64,000 nt of DNA from Aureibaculum flavum (lineage in GTDB: Bacteria > Bacteroidota > Bacteroidia > Flavobacteriales > Flavobacteriaceae): assembly GCF_016406085.1 (NCBI RefSeq), contig NZ_JAEHFJ010000003.1, positions 498,288-562,287 on the forward strand. The letters run 5' to 3'. Made by a program: the position numbers and the translations under genes. A model generated the notes under the pieces. That model worked only from the letters and a program-made list of their open reading frames with translations. It had not been told where the DNA came from and made no database searches. Below, piece by piece: positions 4,873 through 58,041 of the stretch (positions are counted from its first letter, which is position 1; every line of letters begins with the position of its first letter).

Positions 4873-5910
4873 TTATTTCAGTTTTACAAAGTATTCTAAA
4901 ATAGGTCTTTGATTGACGAAAATGTACAATTCAGAATCGCTAGTTTTTGTAAATGAAATGTTAAAAGTACATTGATCACTATTGCAATCAGGTTCAATTT
5001 TTTTACTATATCTATCGCCCTTAAACGCATAAAACAAATTAATATTTTCAGGTAAGTGTCCCATTAAAAACACAATATCTGTCTTAGTTGCTTCTTCAAG
5101 AACACCAAATTTTGGTGAAATTAATTTCAATTTATTAAGAAAAAAAGAATTTTTATAAATGGGTTTGCTATAAAATTGCTTTAATGTCAGTTTTGATTCA
5201 GTTAGTAACCATTCGGTTTCAGAAGGGTAATGGGTTAAAGCAAATTGATCAGGGTCAGAAAAAAAATAGAAATCGTCAAATTGCGAAAACCATTTGTTAC
5301 CATAGGTATAGCCTGCACCCCAAGTAGCATCAATCAAATACCATTTTTCATCAATTCTGACGGCATTCCATGCATGATTTTCTGCTTCTGGAATTGTATT
5401 AATATCACTAACATCACCTTTGGCATATCCCCCAATTAATTTACATTCAATACCTAAGTATTCTGAAACTTCTTTAAATGTTTGGGCATAACCTTCACAA
5501 ATTGCTTTTTTGGTCTCAAGTGTTTTATGGACAATTGAATTGTTTATAGCCTTCATTTTACGGTTAAAATCCGTTTTAGAGGTGTAACTGAAACCAATTT
5601 CAGTCTGTCCTTTAGCATAGGAAGTCATGTCATATTTAATTGTAATACATAGCCAAGTATAGAGGGCTCTAATTCTATCTTTTTTCGTCGTAAAATCTTT
5701 CAGAATTTGTTCCGCTAAAGCCGCCGAGCTTTTGTAATCTGAGCTATAGCTTCTTACTCTTGCGTCAACAGCATCATATTCATGCGTCATGGTTTTTGTG
5801 GAAGTAATTGGAGAATGGATATTATTCATTTGTCCAGCAATATCAAATTGCTGAGCATAGTTTTTGTTTATAAACAAAAACAGCAACAGGTATAGTGTTA
5901 TGTTTCTCAC
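4873..5910 (-). CDS. Secreted transglutaminase-like (cysteine protease fold) protein
   Basis: A 345-residue protein with a Sec signal peptide (residues 1-19, ending NYA-Q). The transglutaminase core spans roughly residues 70-205 and shows the full triad in order: C138 in KKAICEGYA, H179 in ENHAWNAV and D194 in YLIDATWGAG. It resembles the kyphoscoliosis/transglutaminase-like domain proteins that bacteria export. Family members cleave or cross-link peptides, but the substrate is unknown. The C-terminal 100 residues (KFGVLEEATKTDIVFLMG and onward) look like a beta-sandwich. It is the last gene of a minus-strand run after kdsA and an outer-membrane protein gene, 40 bases from its neighbour, and may be co-transcribed with them. 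Confidence 0.85.
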   Translation of the reverse strand: MRNITLYLLLFLFINKNYAQQFDIAGQMNNIHSPITSTKTMTHEYDAVDARVRSYSSDYKSSAALAEQILKDFTTKKDRIRALYTWLCITIKYDMTSYAKGQTEIGFSYTSKTDFNRKMKAINNSIVHKTLETKKAICEGYAQTFKEVSEYLGIECKLIGGYAKGDVSDINTIPEAENHAWNAVRIDEKWYLIDATWGAGYTYGNKWFSQFDDFYFFSDPDQFALTHYPSETEWLLTESKLTLKQFYSKPIYKNSFFLNKLKLISPKFGVLEEATKTDIVFLMGHLPENINLFYAFKGDRYSKKIEPDCNSDQCTFNISFTKTSDSELYIFVNQRPILEYFVKLK

Positions 5911-51970: not shown

Positions 51971-53596
51971 CTAATGTTTTTTCTTATCCTTATACAATTC
52001 AATATAATGATTATCCAATGTTTCTGAATCTTTATATTTTGCTCTAACCTCTTTTAATTTTTGCTTCATTTCTGTAATAGTATCTGCATAGTTTTTGTCA
52101 TTGATAAGGTTATTCATTTCTTGCGGATCTTTTTTACGGTCATAAAATTCCCATTCATCAATGTCGTAGTAAAAATGAATAATTTTAAATTCTTTAGTAG
52201 CAATACCATAATGACGTTTTACAGCATGTTCTGCAGGATATTCATAATAATGGTAATACACAGCATCTCTGTCCCATTTTTCTTTTTCTCCTTTTAAAAG
52301 AGGCACTAAACTTTCACCTTGCATTTCTTCAGGAGCTTCAACACCTGCTATATCTAGAAAAGTTTGAGCAAAATCAAGATTTTGAACCATTTCATCTTCT
52401 GTTGTTCCTGCGGTAATTTTATTTGGCCATTTTATCAATAAAGGAGTTTTAAAAGATTCGTCATACATAAAGCGTTTATCAAACCAGCCATGTTCACCAA
52501 GATAAAAACCTTGGTCAGAAGTGTAAACTATTATTGTATTTTCTGATAGTTTTTCTTCATCAAGATAATCTAACACTCGTCCAACATTATCATCAACAGA
52601 AGCAATAGTACCTAAATAATCTTGTAGATAGCGTTGGTATTTCCATTCCATTAATTGTTTGTCGTCCATCGTAGGGTATCGCTTTTCAAAATCTGTAATA
52701 ATAGGATTGTAAACACTATCCCAACTGCTACGTTGCTCAGCAGTCATTCTTTTTATTTCAGACCTTCCCATTCCATCAAAAATGTTTAGTTTTTTTAAGA
52801 CCTCTTTGTCTATTTTATTATCATAAGCTAAATGCATATGTTCTAGAATATTCATTTCGGCAGTTTTAGCCGCAGTTCTACCTTCGTAATTATCAAATAG
52901 AGTTTCAGGTAATGGGAATGTTTTTTTAGTATATTCAGTATAATATTTTTTAGTAGGATACCATGCTCGGTGTGGTGCTTTGTGCAAGTACATCAGAAGA
53001 AATGGCTTATCAGCTACTCTTCTATTTTTTAACCAATCTAACGCCAAGTCAGTAGTAATATCAGTTACATAACCATTTATTGTGGTATCACCTTTTTGAG
53101 TAATAAACTGAGGGTTATAGTAACTGCCTTGCCCAGGTAAGATTTTAAACTCATCAAATCCCTTGGGGTTGTTACCAAAGTGAAGTTTACCAAACATTGC
53201 TGTTTGATAACCTGCATTTTGCAACAATTGCGGGAAAGTAACATTGGTGGTGTCAAATGAACTCAAATTATCAATTTTTCCATTTAAATGACTATGTTTT
53301 CCTGTAAGGATAACCGCTCTTGATGGCGAACAAATAGAATTAGTAACACTTGCATTACTAAACAACATGCCTTCGTTGGCAATTCTATCTATGTTTGGGG
53401 TTTTTATTAATTTATCAGAATAGGCACTTATCGCTTGATACGCATGATCGTCTGACATTATAAAAACAATATTAGGTTTTTTATTTTCTGTAGTTGGTGT
53501 TTTGTCGTTTTTTTGTTCAGTTTTACATGATGTCATAAATAACAAAATGCTGGTTAATACTGCAAACTTGAATGTGCTGATTGGGTTGATGGTCAT
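51971..53596 (-). CDS. Type I (S1) sulfatase, lipoprotein
   Basis: A 541-residue sulfatase with lipobox LFMTSC (Cys24). Active-site segments are NIVFIMSDDHAYQAIS (42-57), CSPSR from Cys89 in NSICSPSRAVILTGKHSHLNG, MFGKLHFGN, LHKAPHRAWYPTKKY and YTSDQGFYLGEHGWFDKRFMYDES. It shares the GEHGWFDKR layout with the sulfatase at 28954 and is probably the same subfamily. It is transcribed toward the sialidase from outside the main operon, so it may be independently controlled. Confidence 0.93.
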   Translation of the reverse strand: MTINPISTFKFAVLTSILLFMTSCKTEQKNDKTPTTENKKPNIVFIMSDDHAYQAISAYSDKLIKTPNIDRIANEGMLFSNASVTNSICSPSRAVILTGKHSHLNGKIDNLSSFDTTNVTFPQLLQNAGYQTAMFGKLHFGNNPKGFDEFKILPGQGSYYNPQFITQKGDTTINGYVTDITTDLALDWLKNRRVADKPFLLMYLHKAPHRAWYPTKKYYTEYTKKTFPLPETLFDNYEGRTAAKTAEMNILEHMHLAYDNKIDKEVLKKLNIFDGMGRSEIKRMTAEQRSSWDSVYNPIITDFEKRYPTMDDKQLMEWKYQRYLQDYLGTIASVDDNVGRVLDYLDEEKLSENTIIVYTSDQGFYLGEHGWFDKRFMYDESFKTPLLIKWPNKITAGTTEDEMVQNLDFAQTFLDIAGVEAPEEMQGESLVPLLKGEKEKWDRDAVYYHYYEYPAEHAVKRHYGIATKEFKIIHFYYDIDEWEFYDRKKDPQEMNNLINDKNYADTITEMKQKLKEVRAKYKDSETLDNHYIELYKDKKKH

Positions 53597-53793
53597 TTTA
53601 AAAAAGATTATTGCTTATTGTGTAAAGTTAAACTTATTAATTCTTTTTTTGCTAAAGTTGCTTTTTTATCAGAAACCAAAAAATAACTTTTACTATAATT
53701 TAGGCTGAGGGCATCTTTTAGTCTTTTATTAAAAATGAAAGTTAGGTATTATTGAAAATTCAATAAAAAAGAGTATATATCACTAAAAATAAT

Positions 53794-53823
53794 TTGTTTA
53801 TTAAATTTTTAATAATAGATTTG
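53794..53823 (+). promoter_or_regulatory. Promoter of the aromatic amino acid operon leader
   Basis: TTG (53794-53796), 19 bases, then TAGATTTG (53816-53823), an exact fit to TTG-N17-23-TAnnTTTG. Transcription should begin near 53830, about 12 bases before the leader peptide ATG. Confidence 0.7.
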
Positions 53824-53841
53824 TCTTTTCAAACAGAGAAA

Positions 53842-53931
53842 ATGAATTTATTTAACACTTGGCAAGCTTATTTCTACTTCTTTTATTTTTATAAGATGGA
53901 GCGAGGCTTTGTTGGTGTTTTAGAACAATAA
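53842..53931 (+). CDS. Phe/Tyr-rich attenuator leader peptide
   Basis: A 29-codon open frame (ATG at 53842, TAA at 53929-53931) sits between a good promoter and an attenuator-type terminator. Residues 10-17 read YFYFFYFY, eight consecutive aromatic codons, with Phe4 and Trp7 before them and Phe23 after. Such a run is the hallmark of a ribosome-stalling leader peptide sensing charged tRNA-Phe and tRNA-Tyr. Downstream lies the operon making exactly those amino acids. The codons for residues 21-23 overlap the 5' arm of the antiterminator (53902-53909), so ribosome position decides RNA folding. The peptide itself probably has no other function. Confidence 0.88.
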   Translation: MNLFNTWQAYFYFFYFYKMERGFVGVLEQ

Positions 53932-53960
53932 TTTGTAAACACAATCATATATAAGCCTCG
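53902..53960 (+). promoter_or_regulatory. Antiterminator structure of the aromatic operon attenuator
   Basis: CGAGGCTT (53902-53909) pairs with AAGCCTCG (53953-53960), extended inward by GTGTTT (53915-53920) / AAACAC (53937-53942). The 3' arm is the same segment used as the 5' arm of the terminator, so the two structures exclude each other. Stalling at codons 10-17 would leave the 5' arm free and favour this form. Confidence 0.8.
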
Positions 53961-53979
53961 TTAATTCGAGGCTTTTTTT
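53953..53979 (+). terminator. Attenuator terminator upstream of pheA
   Basis: A perfect 8-bp GC-rich stem AAGCCTCG (53953-53960) / CGAGGCTT (53967-53974), loop TTAATT, with a seven-T run (53973-53979). It lies 65 bases before the pheA ATG, and no gene other than the leader peptide precedes it, so it acts as a conditional terminator. Confidence 0.9.
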
Positions 53980-54044
53980 ATGAATTGATTTAAACTTTTT
54001 AAGATAGATTAAGTTTTAACCAATTCAATTGTAAATTTTTAAAC

Positions 54045-54881
54045 ATGAATATTGCTATTCAAGGTATTTTAGGCTCATTTCACCACATCGTGGCTCATCA
54101 ATATTTTGGTGAAGATGTTAATTTAACAGAGTGCTTGTCTTTTGATGTAATGCCTCAACTAATTAATTCTAATAAAGTCGATGGTGCGGTTATGGCCATT
54201 GAAAATACATTAGCAGGTTCTATTTTATCAAATTATGCTCTGATTGATGAATTTGATTTAAGAATTCATGGCGAAGTACATTTGCCTATTCATCATAATT
54301 TAATGGCATTGGAAGGGCAGTCATTATCTGACATAAAAGAAGTCTGGTCGCATCCTATGGCAATATTACAATGTAGAAAATACTTTAGAGATTATCCAAA
54401 TATAAAATTAGTTGAAGAAAGTGATACGGCAGAGGTTGCAAAGCAAATTCAAGATAAAAAGTTGATGGGTATTGCTGCTATCGCGAGTAACATGGCTGCG
54501 GAAATTTATAATTTGAATATCATTGAAAGTGAAATACAAACAAGGAAGCTAAACTATACCCGCTTTTTTATCTTAAAGAAAAGTAATGGTAATATCAAAA
54601 GCTCTACAGATGTTAATAAGGCGTCATTGCGTTTTGTAACACACCATCATACAGGAAGTTTGTCTGAGGTATTACGTATTTTTGCAAGCTTTAATATGAA
54701 TCTGTCTAAAATACAATCGTTACCAATAATAGATAACCCTTGGAATTATTCTTTTTTTGCAGATGTTGTTTTTGATGATTATCAACAATTTCAGAAGGCG
54801 ATTATAGAAGTTAAAAATAAAGTGAGTGATTTAAAAGTAATTGGAGAATACAAACAAAGTAAACGTAAGCATGACAGCTAA
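54045..54881 (+). CDS. pheA: Prephenate dehydratase
   Basis: A 278-residue cytoplasmic enzyme converting prephenate to phenylpyruvate in phenylalanine synthesis. The catalytic domain includes AIENTLAGSIL (51-61) and the signature TRF (Thr172-Phe174) in NYTRFFIL. A C-terminal ACT domain (about 195-270, FVTHHHTGSLSEVLRIFASFNMNLSKIQSLP) should bind Phe for feedback inhibition. No chorismate mutase domain is attached; that activity is fused to the DAHP synthase at 56962. It is the first structural gene after the attenuator and overlaps the aminotransferase start by 11 bases. Confidence 0.95.
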   Translation: MNIAIQGILGSFHHIVAHQYFGEDVNLTECLSFDVMPQLINSNKVDGAVMAIENTLAGSILSNYALIDEFDLRIHGEVHLPIHHNLMALEGQSLSDIKEVWSHPMAILQCRKYFRDYPNIKLVEESDTAEVAKQIQDKKLMGIAAIASNMAAEIYNLNIIESEIQTRKLNYTRFFILKKSNGNIKSSTDVNKASLRFVTHHHTGSLSEVLRIFASFNMNLSKIQSLPIIDNPWNYSFFADVVFDDYQQFQKAIIEVKNKVSDLKVIGEYKQSKRKHDS

Positions 54882-56025
54882 AGCCAACAGATTAAATAGC
54901 GTAAAAGAATACTACTTTTCTCGTAAATTAAGGGAAGTTCGTCAGCTTAAGGCAGCTGGCAAACCGATAATTAATATTGGTATTGGAAGTCCTGATCTGG
55001 ATCCACCAATTACTGTAAGTAGAGCAATGCAGAATGCGTTAGAACAAAATAATATTCACGGTTACCAAAGTTATCAAGGTTTACCGGAGTTTAGAGCTGC
55101 CATTTCTAATTTCTATAATAAATATTACGATGTTGATATAAACCCAGAGAATGAGATTTTGCCTTTAATGGGTTCCAAAGAAGGTATAATGCACATTTCA
55201 ATGGCATTTTTAAATGTAGGTGATGAAGTTTTAATTCCAAATCCTGGTTATCCTACCTATACTTCAGTTACTAATTTATTAGAAGCTCAACCTGTGTATT
55301 ACGATTTGGTTGATGAAAACAATTGGTTACCTGATTTAGAAACTTTAGAAAAATCTGATTTATCTAAAGTTAAGTTAATGTGGGTAAATTATCCTCATAT
55401 GCCAACAGGTAAAAAGCCAACAAAAGAGTTGTTTAAAAACCTGATTGCCTTTGCGAAAAAGCATGATATTATTTTAATAAATGACAATCCATATAGTTTT
55501 ATCTTAAATGATAATCCACTTAGTATTTTAAATATAGATGGAGCAAAAGAGGTGGCGTTAGAGCTAAATTCACTCAGTAAAACTTTTAATATGGCAGGTT
55601 GGCGTGTAGGGATGCTATTGGGTTCCGCTGAGCATATGAATACGGTTTTACAAGTAAAAAGTAATATGGATTCTGGAATGTTTTATGGAATTCAACAGGG
55701 AGCAATTGCAGCCCTACAATCGGATTATAGTTGGTTTAACAACTTAAATATTATTTATGAAAAACGTAGAAATATCGCTTGGAAGATTGCGGATGCGTTA
55801 GGTTGTACATATGACAAGGATGCCTCTGGACTGTTTGTTTGGGCAAAATTACCAATTGGATTAACGGCAGAGCAAACAGCAGATGATTTATTATATACCT
55901 ATGATGTGTTTCTAGCTCCAGGTACTATTTTTGGAACCAATGGAGAAGGCTATATAAGACTTTCATTATGTGTTACAGAAGAAGTGTTGAGCGAAGTATT
56001 AAGTCGAATATTGAGAGCTAATTAA
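54871..56025 (+). CDS. PLP-dependent class I/II aminotransferase (aromatic pathway)
   Basis: A 384-residue enzyme from the ATG at 54871. A TTG at 54841 in frame would lengthen it by 10 residues and overlap pheA more. The fold-type I layout shows INIGIGSPDLDPP near the start, GLPEFRAAIS, GSKEG (PLP phosphate loop), NYPHMPTGKK, the internal-aldimine Lys237 in LNSLSKTFNMAGWRVG, and GEGYIRLSLCVTEE at the end. Between pheA and tyrA it most likely transaminates phenylpyruvate and hydroxyphenylpyruvate, or prephenate to arogenate; sequence does not decide. The stop abuts the tyrA start. Confidence 0.9.
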   Translation: MTAKANRLNSVKEYYFSRKLREVRQLKAAGKPIINIGIGSPDLDPPITVSRAMQNALEQNNIHGYQSYQGLPEFRAAISNFYNKYYDVDINPENEILPLMGSKEGIMHISMAFLNVGDEVLIPNPGYPTYTSVTNLLEAQPVYYDLVDENNWLPDLETLEKSDLSKVKLMWVNYPHMPTGKKPTKELFKNLIAFAKKHDIILINDNPYSFILNDNPLSILNIDGAKEVALELNSLSKTFNMAGWRVGMLLGSAEHMNTVLQVKSNMDSGMFYGIQQGAIAALQSDYSWFNNLNIIYEKRRNIAWKIADALGCTYDKDASGLFVWAKLPIGLTAEQTADDLLYTYDVFLAPGTIFGTNGEGYIRLSLCVTEEVLSEVLSRILRAN

Positions 56026-56877
56026 ATGGAAAAAGTAGTTGTTATCGGTTTAGGGTTAATAGGAGGTTCAATGGCAATTGACCTTAAGAAAAATGGTAAT
56101 TATCATATTATTGGAATTGATAGAAATGTAAATCATACTAATAAAGCATTGGAATTAGGCATTATAGATGAAATTGGAGCTGATTCAATTTTAACTGAAG
56201 CAGACGTGGTAATTGTTGCCGTTCCTGCCGATGCAATACCTCCAGTTACAAAATCGGTTTTAGATCAAATTAATGAAAACACATTGGTTTTTGATGTAGG
56301 GTCAGTAAAAGGGCAAGTATGTAATCAGGTAAAAGAACATCCAAATAGAAGGAATTATGTAGCAGCCCACCCTATTGCTGGTACTGAGTTTTCAGGACCG
56401 GAAGCAGCATTTAGTGGTTTGTTTACCAATAAGATTAATATAATTTGTGAAAAAAAGTTATCAGATAAAAACATATTAGAAAAAGCATTGCAAATTTTTG
56501 ATAAATTAGAAATGCGAACCACTTTTATGAAAGCTGATGAGCATGATAAACACATTGCTTATGTTTCACATTTATCGCATATAAGTTCATTTATGTTAGG
56601 TAAAACGGTGCTAGAAATTGAGCCAAATGAGCACAATATTTTTAATATGGCAGGGAGTGGATTTAGATCAACGGTGCGTTTAGCAAAAAGTTCTCCCGCA
56701 ATGTGGACACCTATTTTTTTGCAAAACAAGGAGAACGTTTTAAAATCGTTAACCGAGTATATAAAAAACCTAGAAACCTTTAAAAATAAGATTGAAGAGG
56801 GGTCAAATGAAGAAGTTTTTAATATTATGGAGAACACAAACAGAATTAAAAACATACTAGATGGTATTGTTAAGTAA
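56026..56877 (+). CDS. tyrA: Prephenate dehydrogenase
   Basis: A 283-residue enzyme that oxidatively decarboxylates prephenate (or arogenate) in tyrosine synthesis. The NAD(P)-binding Rossmann motif is GLGLIGGS (Gly8, Gly10, Gly13), then DVVIVAVPADAIPP, VFDVGSVKG, and the catalytic-domain motif AAHPIAGTEFSGPEAA. HIAYVSHLSHISSFML carries the substrate His region. It is shorter than mutase-fused forms and has no ACT domain. It starts immediately after the aminotransferase stop, consistent with translational coupling. Confidence 0.95.
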   Translation: MEKVVVIGLGLIGGSMAIDLKKNGNYHIIGIDRNVNHTNKALELGIIDEIGADSILTEADVVIVAVPADAIPPVTKSVLDQINENTLVFDVGSVKGQVCNQVKEHPNRRNYVAAHPIAGTEFSGPEAAFSGLFTNKINIICEKKLSDKNILEKALQIFDKLEMRTTFMKADEHDKHIAYVSHLSHISSFMLGKTVLEIEPNEHNIFNMAGSGFRSTVRLAKSSPAMWTPIFLQNKENVLKSLTEYIKNLETFKNKIEEGSNEEVFNIMENTNRIKNILDGIVK

Positions 56878-56961: not shown

Positions 56962-58041
56962 ATGGAATCAGTAGACTTTTCAACATGGTTAAAGAAGATG
57001 GAGTTAAACCATCCTTTAGTAATTGCCGGACCATGTAGTGCAGAAACGGAAGAGCAAGTTTTAAAAATAGCTCATCAATTAAAAGAAACGGATGCTACTG
57101 TTTTTAGAGCAGGTATTTGGAAACCAAGAACACGTCCAGGAAATTTCGAAGGCAATGGTGTAAAAGCATTACCATGGATGGCTAAAGTAAAGGAAGAAAC
57201 AGGAATGTTAACTACTGTTGAAGTGGCAAATGCAGAGCATGCTAAGTTAGCTTTAGAATTTGATATTGATATCATTTGGATTGGTGCAAGAACAACTGTA
57301 AATCCTTTTGCTGTACAAGAAATTGCAGATGCATTGGCAGGTACTGATAAAATAGTGTTAGTAAAAAATCCTATAAATCCTGATTTAGAATTGTGGATTG
57401 GTGCTATTGAGCGTTTACATACTATGGGAATAAAGAATTTAGGAGCTATTCATAGAGGCTTCTCATCTTTTAAAAAGACGAAATATAGAAACACACCACA
57501 ATGGCAAATTCCTATTGCTTTAAAACAAAGGTTTCCAACATTGCCTATTATTAATGATCCTTCGCACATTTGTGGTGAGCGTGAAGGTCTTTTTGATGTA
57601 TGTCAGACTTCTTTAGATTTAAAATTTGAAGGCTTAATGATAGAAACTCATTTTGATCCAGATAACGCATGGAGTGATGCTAAACAACAAATTACACCAG
57701 CTAGATTAAAAGAAATTACAGAAGAGCTTAAAGTTCGTAAAGGTAGAGTTGAAGAAAAAGATTCTTTAGCTAAATTGAATAATTTAAGAGCTGAAATCAA
57801 TGTATTAGACAAACAATTAATTGATTTATTAGCTGATAGAATGGATGTTGTTGAAAACATTGGTAAGGTGAAAAAAGAAAGTAACGTTGCTATTTTACAA
57901 CGTAGCCGATGGTCAGAAGTAATGCAAGGAATGGTTAATGAAGGTAAACTAAATGGGCTTAGCGAAGATTTTATAGAAAAAATATTCAAATCTATCCACC
58001 AAGAGTCTATTGAACATCAAGAGAAAATTGTAAATAACTAG
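56962..58041 (+). CDS. Bifunctional DAHP synthase / chorismate mutase (type II)
   Basis: A 359-residue fusion. Residues about 10-265 are a type I DAHP synthase of the KDPG-aldolase-like subgroup (VIAGPCSAETEEQV, FRAGIWKPRTRPGNFEG, IIWIGARTTVNPFAVQEIADAL, NDPSHICGEREGLF, GLMIETHFDPDNAWSDA). Residues about 275-350 are an AroQ chorismate mutase (LNNLRAEINVLDKQLIDLLADRMDVVENIGKVK). It thus supplies both the first shikimate step and prephenate. Fusion of this kind is usual in Bacteroidota and lets prephenate or chorismate regulate entry to the pathway. An 84-base gap follows tyrA, and a terminator at 58075-58110 closes the operon. Confidence 0.95.
   Translation: MESVDFSTWLKKMELNHPLVIAGPCSAETEEQVLKIAHQLKETDATVFRAGIWKPRTRPGNFEGNGVKALPWMAKVKEETGMLTTVEVANAEHAKLALEFDIDIIWIGARTTVNPFAVQEIADALAGTDKIVLVKNPINPDLELWIGAIERLHTMGIKNLGAIHRGFSSFKKTKYRNTPQWQIPIALKQRFPTLPIINDPSHICGEREGLFDVCQTSLDLKFEGLMIETHFDPDNAWSDAKQQITPARLKEITEELKVRKGRVEEKDSLAKLNNLRAEINVLDKQLIDLLADRMDVVENIGKVKKESNVAILQRSRWSEVMQGMVNEGKLNGLSEDFIEKIFKSIHQESIEHQEKIVNN

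Follow-up and report, generated by a model that had tools for sequence, protein, structure and literature searches.

The DNA upstream of pheA in Aureibaculum flavum raises the question of whether an operon for aromatic amino acid synthesis is controlled through translation of a short leader and, if so, which amino acids that leader senses. The initial annotation of the window, by which we mean the whole 64,000-nucleotide stretch analysed here, had read this region as a complete ribosome-mediated attenuator. Our follow-up supports that reading: the parts are in place and are conserved in relatives, segments 2, 3 and 4 of the leader covary, and the operon context agrees, which leads us to regard the element with high confidence as a classical ribosome-mediated transcription attenuator.

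The leader and its operon

All parts of the element lie on the plus strand. A putative Bacteroidota-type promoter (53793–53823) consists of TTTG at 53793–53796, a 19-base spacer and TAGATTTG at 53816–53823. A sigma-70 promoter was rejected, as no plus-strand match to the sigma-70 consensus was found at this site; the Bacteroidota-type motif fits instead. In 77 of 121 leaders TANNTTTG occurs no more than 60 bases ahead of the leader ATG, mostly at a distance of 24–32 bases, compared with 626 occurrences in 13243 background pieces (4.7%), an enrichment that would argue against a transcription start downstream of 53931. The leader ORF that follows (53842–53931), which would encode the peptide MNLFNTWQAYFYFFYFYKMERGFVGVLEQ, comprises an ATG at 53842–53844, 29 codons and a TAA stop at 53929–53931, and its frame extends to an upstream TTG in the ORF listing. 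The candidate regulatory codons form one uninterrupted aromatic run, YFYFFYFY, at 53869–53892 (TAT TTC TAC TTC TTT TAT TTT TAT).

Beyond this run lie the segments of two alternative folds. Segment 2, the 5′ arm of the antiterminator (53902–53920), is made up of CGAGGCTT at 53902–53909 and GTGTTT at 53915–53920, while segment 3, its 3′ arm (53937–53960), is made up of AAACAC at 53937–53942, which is able to pair with the GTGTTT, and of AAGCCTCG at 53953–53960. The latter doubles as the 5′ arm of the 3:4 intrinsic terminator (53953–53979), which reads AAGCCTCG-TTAATT-CGAGGCTT and then runs into Ts, the second copy of CGAGGCTT lying at 53967–53974 and the T run at 53973–53979. A terminator scan of 53500–54300 returned two sites (53953–53979 and 53702–53724) against a mean of 0.1 in shuffled sequences, and the 3:4 terminator is placed between the leader ORF and pheA, the first gene of the operon. 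On re-reading of the sequence, every coordinate in the initial annotation proved correct.

The operon begins with pheA for prephenate dehydratase (54045–54881, plus strand), with a PDT domain and an ACT domain scoring slightly below the Pfam cut-off, and the window's PheA is 97% identical to that of Aureibaculum luteum (family Flavobacteriaceae, phylum Bacteroidota). There follow, on the same strand, a class I/II aminotransferase gene (54841–56025), whose start is uncertain, TTG 54841 giving the longest frame and 54859–56025 being the part used in the family search, and two genes assigned by family search, tyrA for prephenate dehydrogenase (56026–56877) and a gene for DAHP synthase fused to chorismate mutase (56962–58041). 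This order is kept in 58 of the 60 loci that have at least 4.3 kb of downstream sequence, to which the count was confined. Among the exceptions, one locus stops after tyrA, and the other (L044) has pheA alone, with no leader and no match for the aminotransferase, tyrA or DAHP synthase; its record is labelled Gammaproteobacteria, its PheA shares 55% identity with that of the window, and it is possibly a binning error. The upstream neighbour (51971–53596, minus strand), a sulfatase by Pfam, is divergent, so that no upstream gene on the strand of the leader needs a terminator.

Conservation and alternative pairing

An aromatic run alone was rejected as evidence, since six-codon F/Y strings match the genome less often (110 matches, overlaps counted) than a reversed-pattern control does (163). 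Our detector calls for at least five F/Y within nine codons of a short ORF, followed by a terminator no more than 130 bases on, and by this definition an aromatic leader with its terminator is found in 125 of 140 pheA upstream regions. The 140 regions comprise the window, 79 of 80 related loci (L027 ends inside the gene) and 60 further genome stretches, which were hand-picked, mostly from the more similar end of the match list, and which take in 26 of the 39 genomes from the same family that gave a match; L082 and L003, whose contigs have the same length (441961 bases), are apparently one record counted twice. The positives are the window, 76 of the 79 related loci, all 26 same-family stretches and 22 of the 34 other stretches, and they span eleven family labels (f1, f3, f4, f5, f8, f9, f11, f12, f17, f20 and f35). 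In the controls, both drawn from related loci longer than 5 kb, the detector responded to 19 of 2902 other 450-base pieces, five of them with the same spacing, and, among 524 regions upstream of ORFs other than pheA, to a single one, which is the displaced pheA leader of a locus with a gene inserted before pheA (L034). It is the combination of leader and terminator, rare in the controls and frequent before pheA, that is therefore special, and not the F/Y run alone. Twenty hand-picked regions from more distant families gave no leader with terminator (0/20), at least two of these (L157 and L158) being unfair tests, as they belong to long fused genes that begin beyond the sequence covered; over all 160 regions the detector was positive in 125.

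Fifteen of the 140 regions are without the full set of leader and terminator. One of them (L014) has just 44 upstream bases, another is the displaced leader of L034, and in three (L115, L130 and L134) the aromatic leader is there but no terminator passes the threshold; ten have neither leader nor terminator by the detector's definition, with one borderline ORF in L110. One of these ten, L123, belongs to a long fused gene that begins beyond the sequence covered and makes an unfair test. In L108 and L109, where no leader was found, the ORF preceding pheA resembles by eye the end of an EPSP synthase gene, and the start of their operon may lie further upstream.

The pairing of the segments was assessed on 61 non-redundant leaders taken as representatives. 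The 2:3 duplex averages −13.8 kcal/mol within a genome against −9.4 kcal/mol between genomes (0 of 10000 permutations, n = 61), in a swap test that leaves each pairing free to pick its own register and so is without the bias of the segment 2 location. It is likewise stronger than pairing in which segment 2 has been shuffled (mean z −3.6, n = 61). In 11 of 61 cases no other genome offers a segment 2 a better partner than its own segment 3, and in 31 the own segment 3 ranks in the top five; it seldom takes first place because similar arms are common to many genomes. Across 77 distinct arm triples, 73 cells of the 2:3 helix showed changes in both partners, where shuffles gave 23.4, and 87% of its cells are paired, compared with 24–49% when slid. 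These figures carry some bias towards 2:3 in that segment 2 was found by its complementarity to segment 3; the two end pairs of its 8-base arms do not form in 20 and in 33 of the 77. For the 3:4 helix, 58 cells changed on both sides against 14.8 in shuffles, and 98% of cells are paired against 9–56% when slid (77 arm triples). As judged by this comparison of sequences, antiterminator 2:3 and terminator 3:4 would exclude each other, and changes in segments 2, 3 and 4 are coordinated. Relatives retain the aromatic run as well as both stems, with compensatory changes, so that in this respect the refuting condition set by the initial annotation did not materialise.

While both folds of the two-structure scheme first put forward for this leader are borne out, the scheme was missing the third classical part, a 1:2 hairpin. 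Folding predicts such a hairpin at 53854–53919 (−16.8 kcal/mol), enclosing the aromatic codons, with segment 1 (53854–53885) as its 5′ side pairing with 53890–53919. For the 61 representatives, native 1:2 pairing has a mean of −16.4 kcal/mol against −12.1 kcal/mol when permuted (0 of 10000), the comparison with shuffled segment 2 gives a mean z of −2.3 with 69% of cases below −1.5, and the number of pairs is moderately above that in shuffles (median 23 against 16). Random synonymous recoding weakens the leader fold (mean z −1.6; 44 of 61 below −1 and one above +1; −1.1 for the window itself), as does permutation of synonymous codons within each leader (mean z −1.05; 32 of 61 below −1 and none above +1). 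After the swap and synonymous-codon tests, the two-structure model without 1:2 was dropped, and we predict a 1:2 hairpin around the regulatory codons on the basis of folding, the swap and the two codon tests rather than of column covariation.

Proposed mechanism and the amino acids sensed

Segment 1 sits directly before and across the aromatic run, at the site where a stalled ribosome would be expected, and 91 of 124 leaders have 9–11 bases between the last aromatic codon and the start of segment 2 (L129, whose arm failed to fit the anchor, is left out of this set), a distance close to the reach of a ribosome stalled at that codon. We propose that RNA polymerase would initiate just upstream of 53842, with a ribosome following along the leader ORF. 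When charged tRNA-Phe, and probably charged tRNA-Tyr as well, is scarce, this ribosome would stall at 53869–53892 and mask segment 1, leaving segment 2 (53902–53920) free to pair with segment 3, so that no terminator would form and the operon would be transcribed. With ample Phe and Tyr, the ribosome would cross segment 2 to reach the stop codon, and the 3:4 hairpin would terminate transcription. With no ribosome on the leader, 1:2 and 3:4 would both form and transcription would terminate as well, such that the 1:2 hairpin would determine the outcome for an untranslated leader. The predicted energies, −29.1 kcal/mol for 1:2 plus 3:4 (a sum), −20.7 kcal/mol for 2:3 (folded with the 8-mer pairing imposed) and −12.3 kcal/mol for 3:4 alone, would fit a switch that is off by default and on once segment 1 is masked. 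The stop codon lies within 24 bases of the start of segment 2 in 115 of 124 leaders and farther away in nine; in the window it lies 27 bases past that start, where a ribosome at the stop, judged from the ribosomal footprint, would leave 53902–53909 uncovered. Such a ribosome would still cover 53915–53920 and 53937–53942, and 1:2 could re-form behind it and hold segment 2, so that we would still expect termination in the window.

The codons themselves point to what is sensed. Both Phe and Tyr occur in the nine-codon core of all 125 leaders, with at least two Tyr codons in 112, under a detector that required F or Y and not both, and the cores of the 61 representatives hold 177 Tyr against 275 Phe codons. 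We consider Phe sensing very likely and Tyr sensing likely; joint sensing by one leader, as the initial annotation had it, is probable on the evidence of codon content, the shared presence of the two codons being confirmed throughout and their conservation being the ground from which sensing is argued. The same mechanism could instead answer Phe starvation alone, the Tyr codons being passive filler or neutral variants, a reading we hold to be possible and clearly less probable. It draws on the AroR leader of Corynebacterium glutamicum (Phe-Tyr-Phe), reported in passages of PMC11802643 to answer Phe and not Tyr, and on the final aromatic codon, where Phe outnumbers Tyr (43 against 18 of 61); it sits poorly, however, with the retention of Tyr in every leader and with an operon that includes tyrA and the first shikimate step, for which control by Tyr would be sensible. 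We are more doubtful still that a leader sensing Phe and Tyr additionally senses Trp through the codon that often precedes the run (53860–53862 in the window). Trp is present in 59 of 125 leaders, most often 10–11 codons before the end of the run, DAHP synthase feeds Trp synthesis too, and the geometry permits it, in that a ribosome stalled at 53860–53862, where two of the three bases are unpaired in the predicted fold, would also mask outer segment 1. Yet only 20 of the 61 non-redundant leaders contain Trp, and in the window's genome the trpE-type gene is preceded by a separate leader containing three Trp codons, which makes Trp sensing less likely than that of Phe and Tyr.

Readings that dispense with the codons fare worse. 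That the structured leader is a ligand-binding riboswitch, a T-box or a protein-binding site, with the small ORF incidental, strikes us as very improbable. A pheA 5′ element of Flavobacterium psychrophilum without an Rfam hit was called a probably original cis-regulatory element in the available text of PMC9723704, which would suit such a reading, but its counterweight is that neither the window nor 11 relatives searched gave an Rfam match over threshold at the element, and that the conserved features are codons and helices, with codon identity tracking the operon. Within 52000–56000 no Rfam family reached its gathering score (Leu_leader, 21.6 against 50 bits), RF01859 Phe_leader attained 24.3 bits against a gathering threshold of 55 (E 0.66), and membership of the element in an Rfam family was rejected, every score being below threshold. 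We find it hardly credible that the region is just a terminator of the usual kind, or encodes a small peptide with a function in the membrane, and does not regulate pheA: F/Y-rich peptides are hydrophobic and short ORFs frequent, but the divergent gene upstream (51971–53596) needs no terminator on this strand, and the peptide varies outside its aromatic run while the RNA pairing is kept. As a separate observation, a SAM-I-IV riboswitch scores above the Rfam threshold at 1241–1334 on the minus strand of L065, about 4.7 kb from pheA and unrelated to it.

Attenuation by codon sensing draws its strongest argument from other leaders of the same genome, in which codon identity follows the operon. 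A leader with His codons, MTLNHIHHHFHTGFQAR, and then a terminator stand before hisG (L192); MNTILNHTWWWNSRKTNS, which includes three Trp codons, lies together with a terminator before one PF00425 gene (L194), which by eye we take to be of the trpE type; and MKTRNLVNNSILNVVIISWQ, rich in Ile/Leu/Val, and a terminator precede ilvD (L196). The second of these is a probable Trp attenuator and the third a probable branched-chain attenuator. No cognate leader was found within 450 bases before two homoserine dehydrogenase genes (L197 and L198) or pheS, nor before the two other PF00425 genes of the genome (L193 and L195). Among 21 genomes, hisG was found in 16, and in 15 of these 16 it is preceded by an ORF that has three or more His in a stretch of eight codons and by a terminator, a raw count that includes the genome's own case and some near-identical genomes; L202 was read from the wrong ORF and entered as a miss.

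Relation to known attenuators

The element resembles the enterobacterial pheL–pheA system (RF01859), in which a leader peptide, alternative hairpins and a terminator likewise precede pheA. The pheL leader carries Phe codons only, whereas the one described here mixes Phe with Tyr, belongs to a different phylum and stands before an operon that also has the aminotransferase, tyrA and DAHP synthase/chorismate mutase genes. Codons for more than one amino acid in a single leader are found in the enterobacterial ilvGMEDA and thr operons, with branched-chain or Thr/Ile codons where ours has aromatic ones. A comparative survey of attenuation by Lopatovskaya from 2010 (PubMed 20198868) could pre-empt part of the novelty, as could a modelling paper (17477496). 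Passages of PMC11802643 describe the enterobacterial pheL–pheA attenuator as regulated by Phe-charged tRNA and the C. glutamicum AroR leader, before aroF, as controlling DAHP synthase through ribosome stalling, with Tyr having no effect. AroR is thus like our element in being an aromatic leader with Phe and Tyr in control of a DAHP synthase, and differs from it in phylum and operon. A further relative, uORFC-13-1, is described in passages of PMC8632094 as a small ORF, containing one or more Phe codons, that precedes a terminator and aroF (DAHP synthase), with 24 representatives; it differs in concerning aroF only, those passages mention no Tyr codons, and the paper contains no Bacteroid-, Flavobacter- or pheA term.

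Closest to the present case is a 2021 study of F. psychrophilum, whose available text counts 64 5′ regions with structure, sees strong indications of leader-peptide attenuation before amino acid biosynthesis operons, and describes conserved elements before pheA and hisG, found in other genera too and without Rfam hits (PMC9723704). Its pheA element is most probably the orthologue of the one described here, and the claim of novelty made in the initial annotation is weakened to that extent; the main text, so far as available, gives no peptide, alternative folds or Phe/Tyr specificity for that element (PMC9723704), and a two-amino-acid Phe/Tyr sensor remains the new part. That study aside, none of the literature matches listed describes a leader with Phe and Tyr codons in Bacteroidota. 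Leader-peptide attenuation is a textbook mechanism, described chiefly in Proteobacteria and Actinobacteria. According to a 2010 survey, which extended the list to Firmicutes, all leader-peptide systems known until then except ermC came from those two groups (PMC2965389).

We lean slightly towards a broader view, in which one Phe and Tyr leader, sampled under eleven family labels, governs the first shikimate step and both terminal branches in one transcript, serving as a main aromatic control of the Bacteroidota in place of a TyrR-like repressor, within a lineage-wide set of His, Trp and Ile/Leu/Val leaders. A case conserved across several families of the phylum suggests leader attenuation as one of the main routes of amino acid control there. 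Translation initiation in Bacteroidota proceeds largely without Shine–Dalgarno pairing, and if attenuation works in these bacteria, coupling of ribosome and polymerase would be required in spite of it. The element also offers a clean test of whether a single leader senses two amino acids. One relative (L034) is a natural insertion that has parted the attenuator from its operon: a gene of 197 aa at 5149–5742, transposase-like by eye and without a Pfam match at E 0.001, separates the aromatic leader from pheA.
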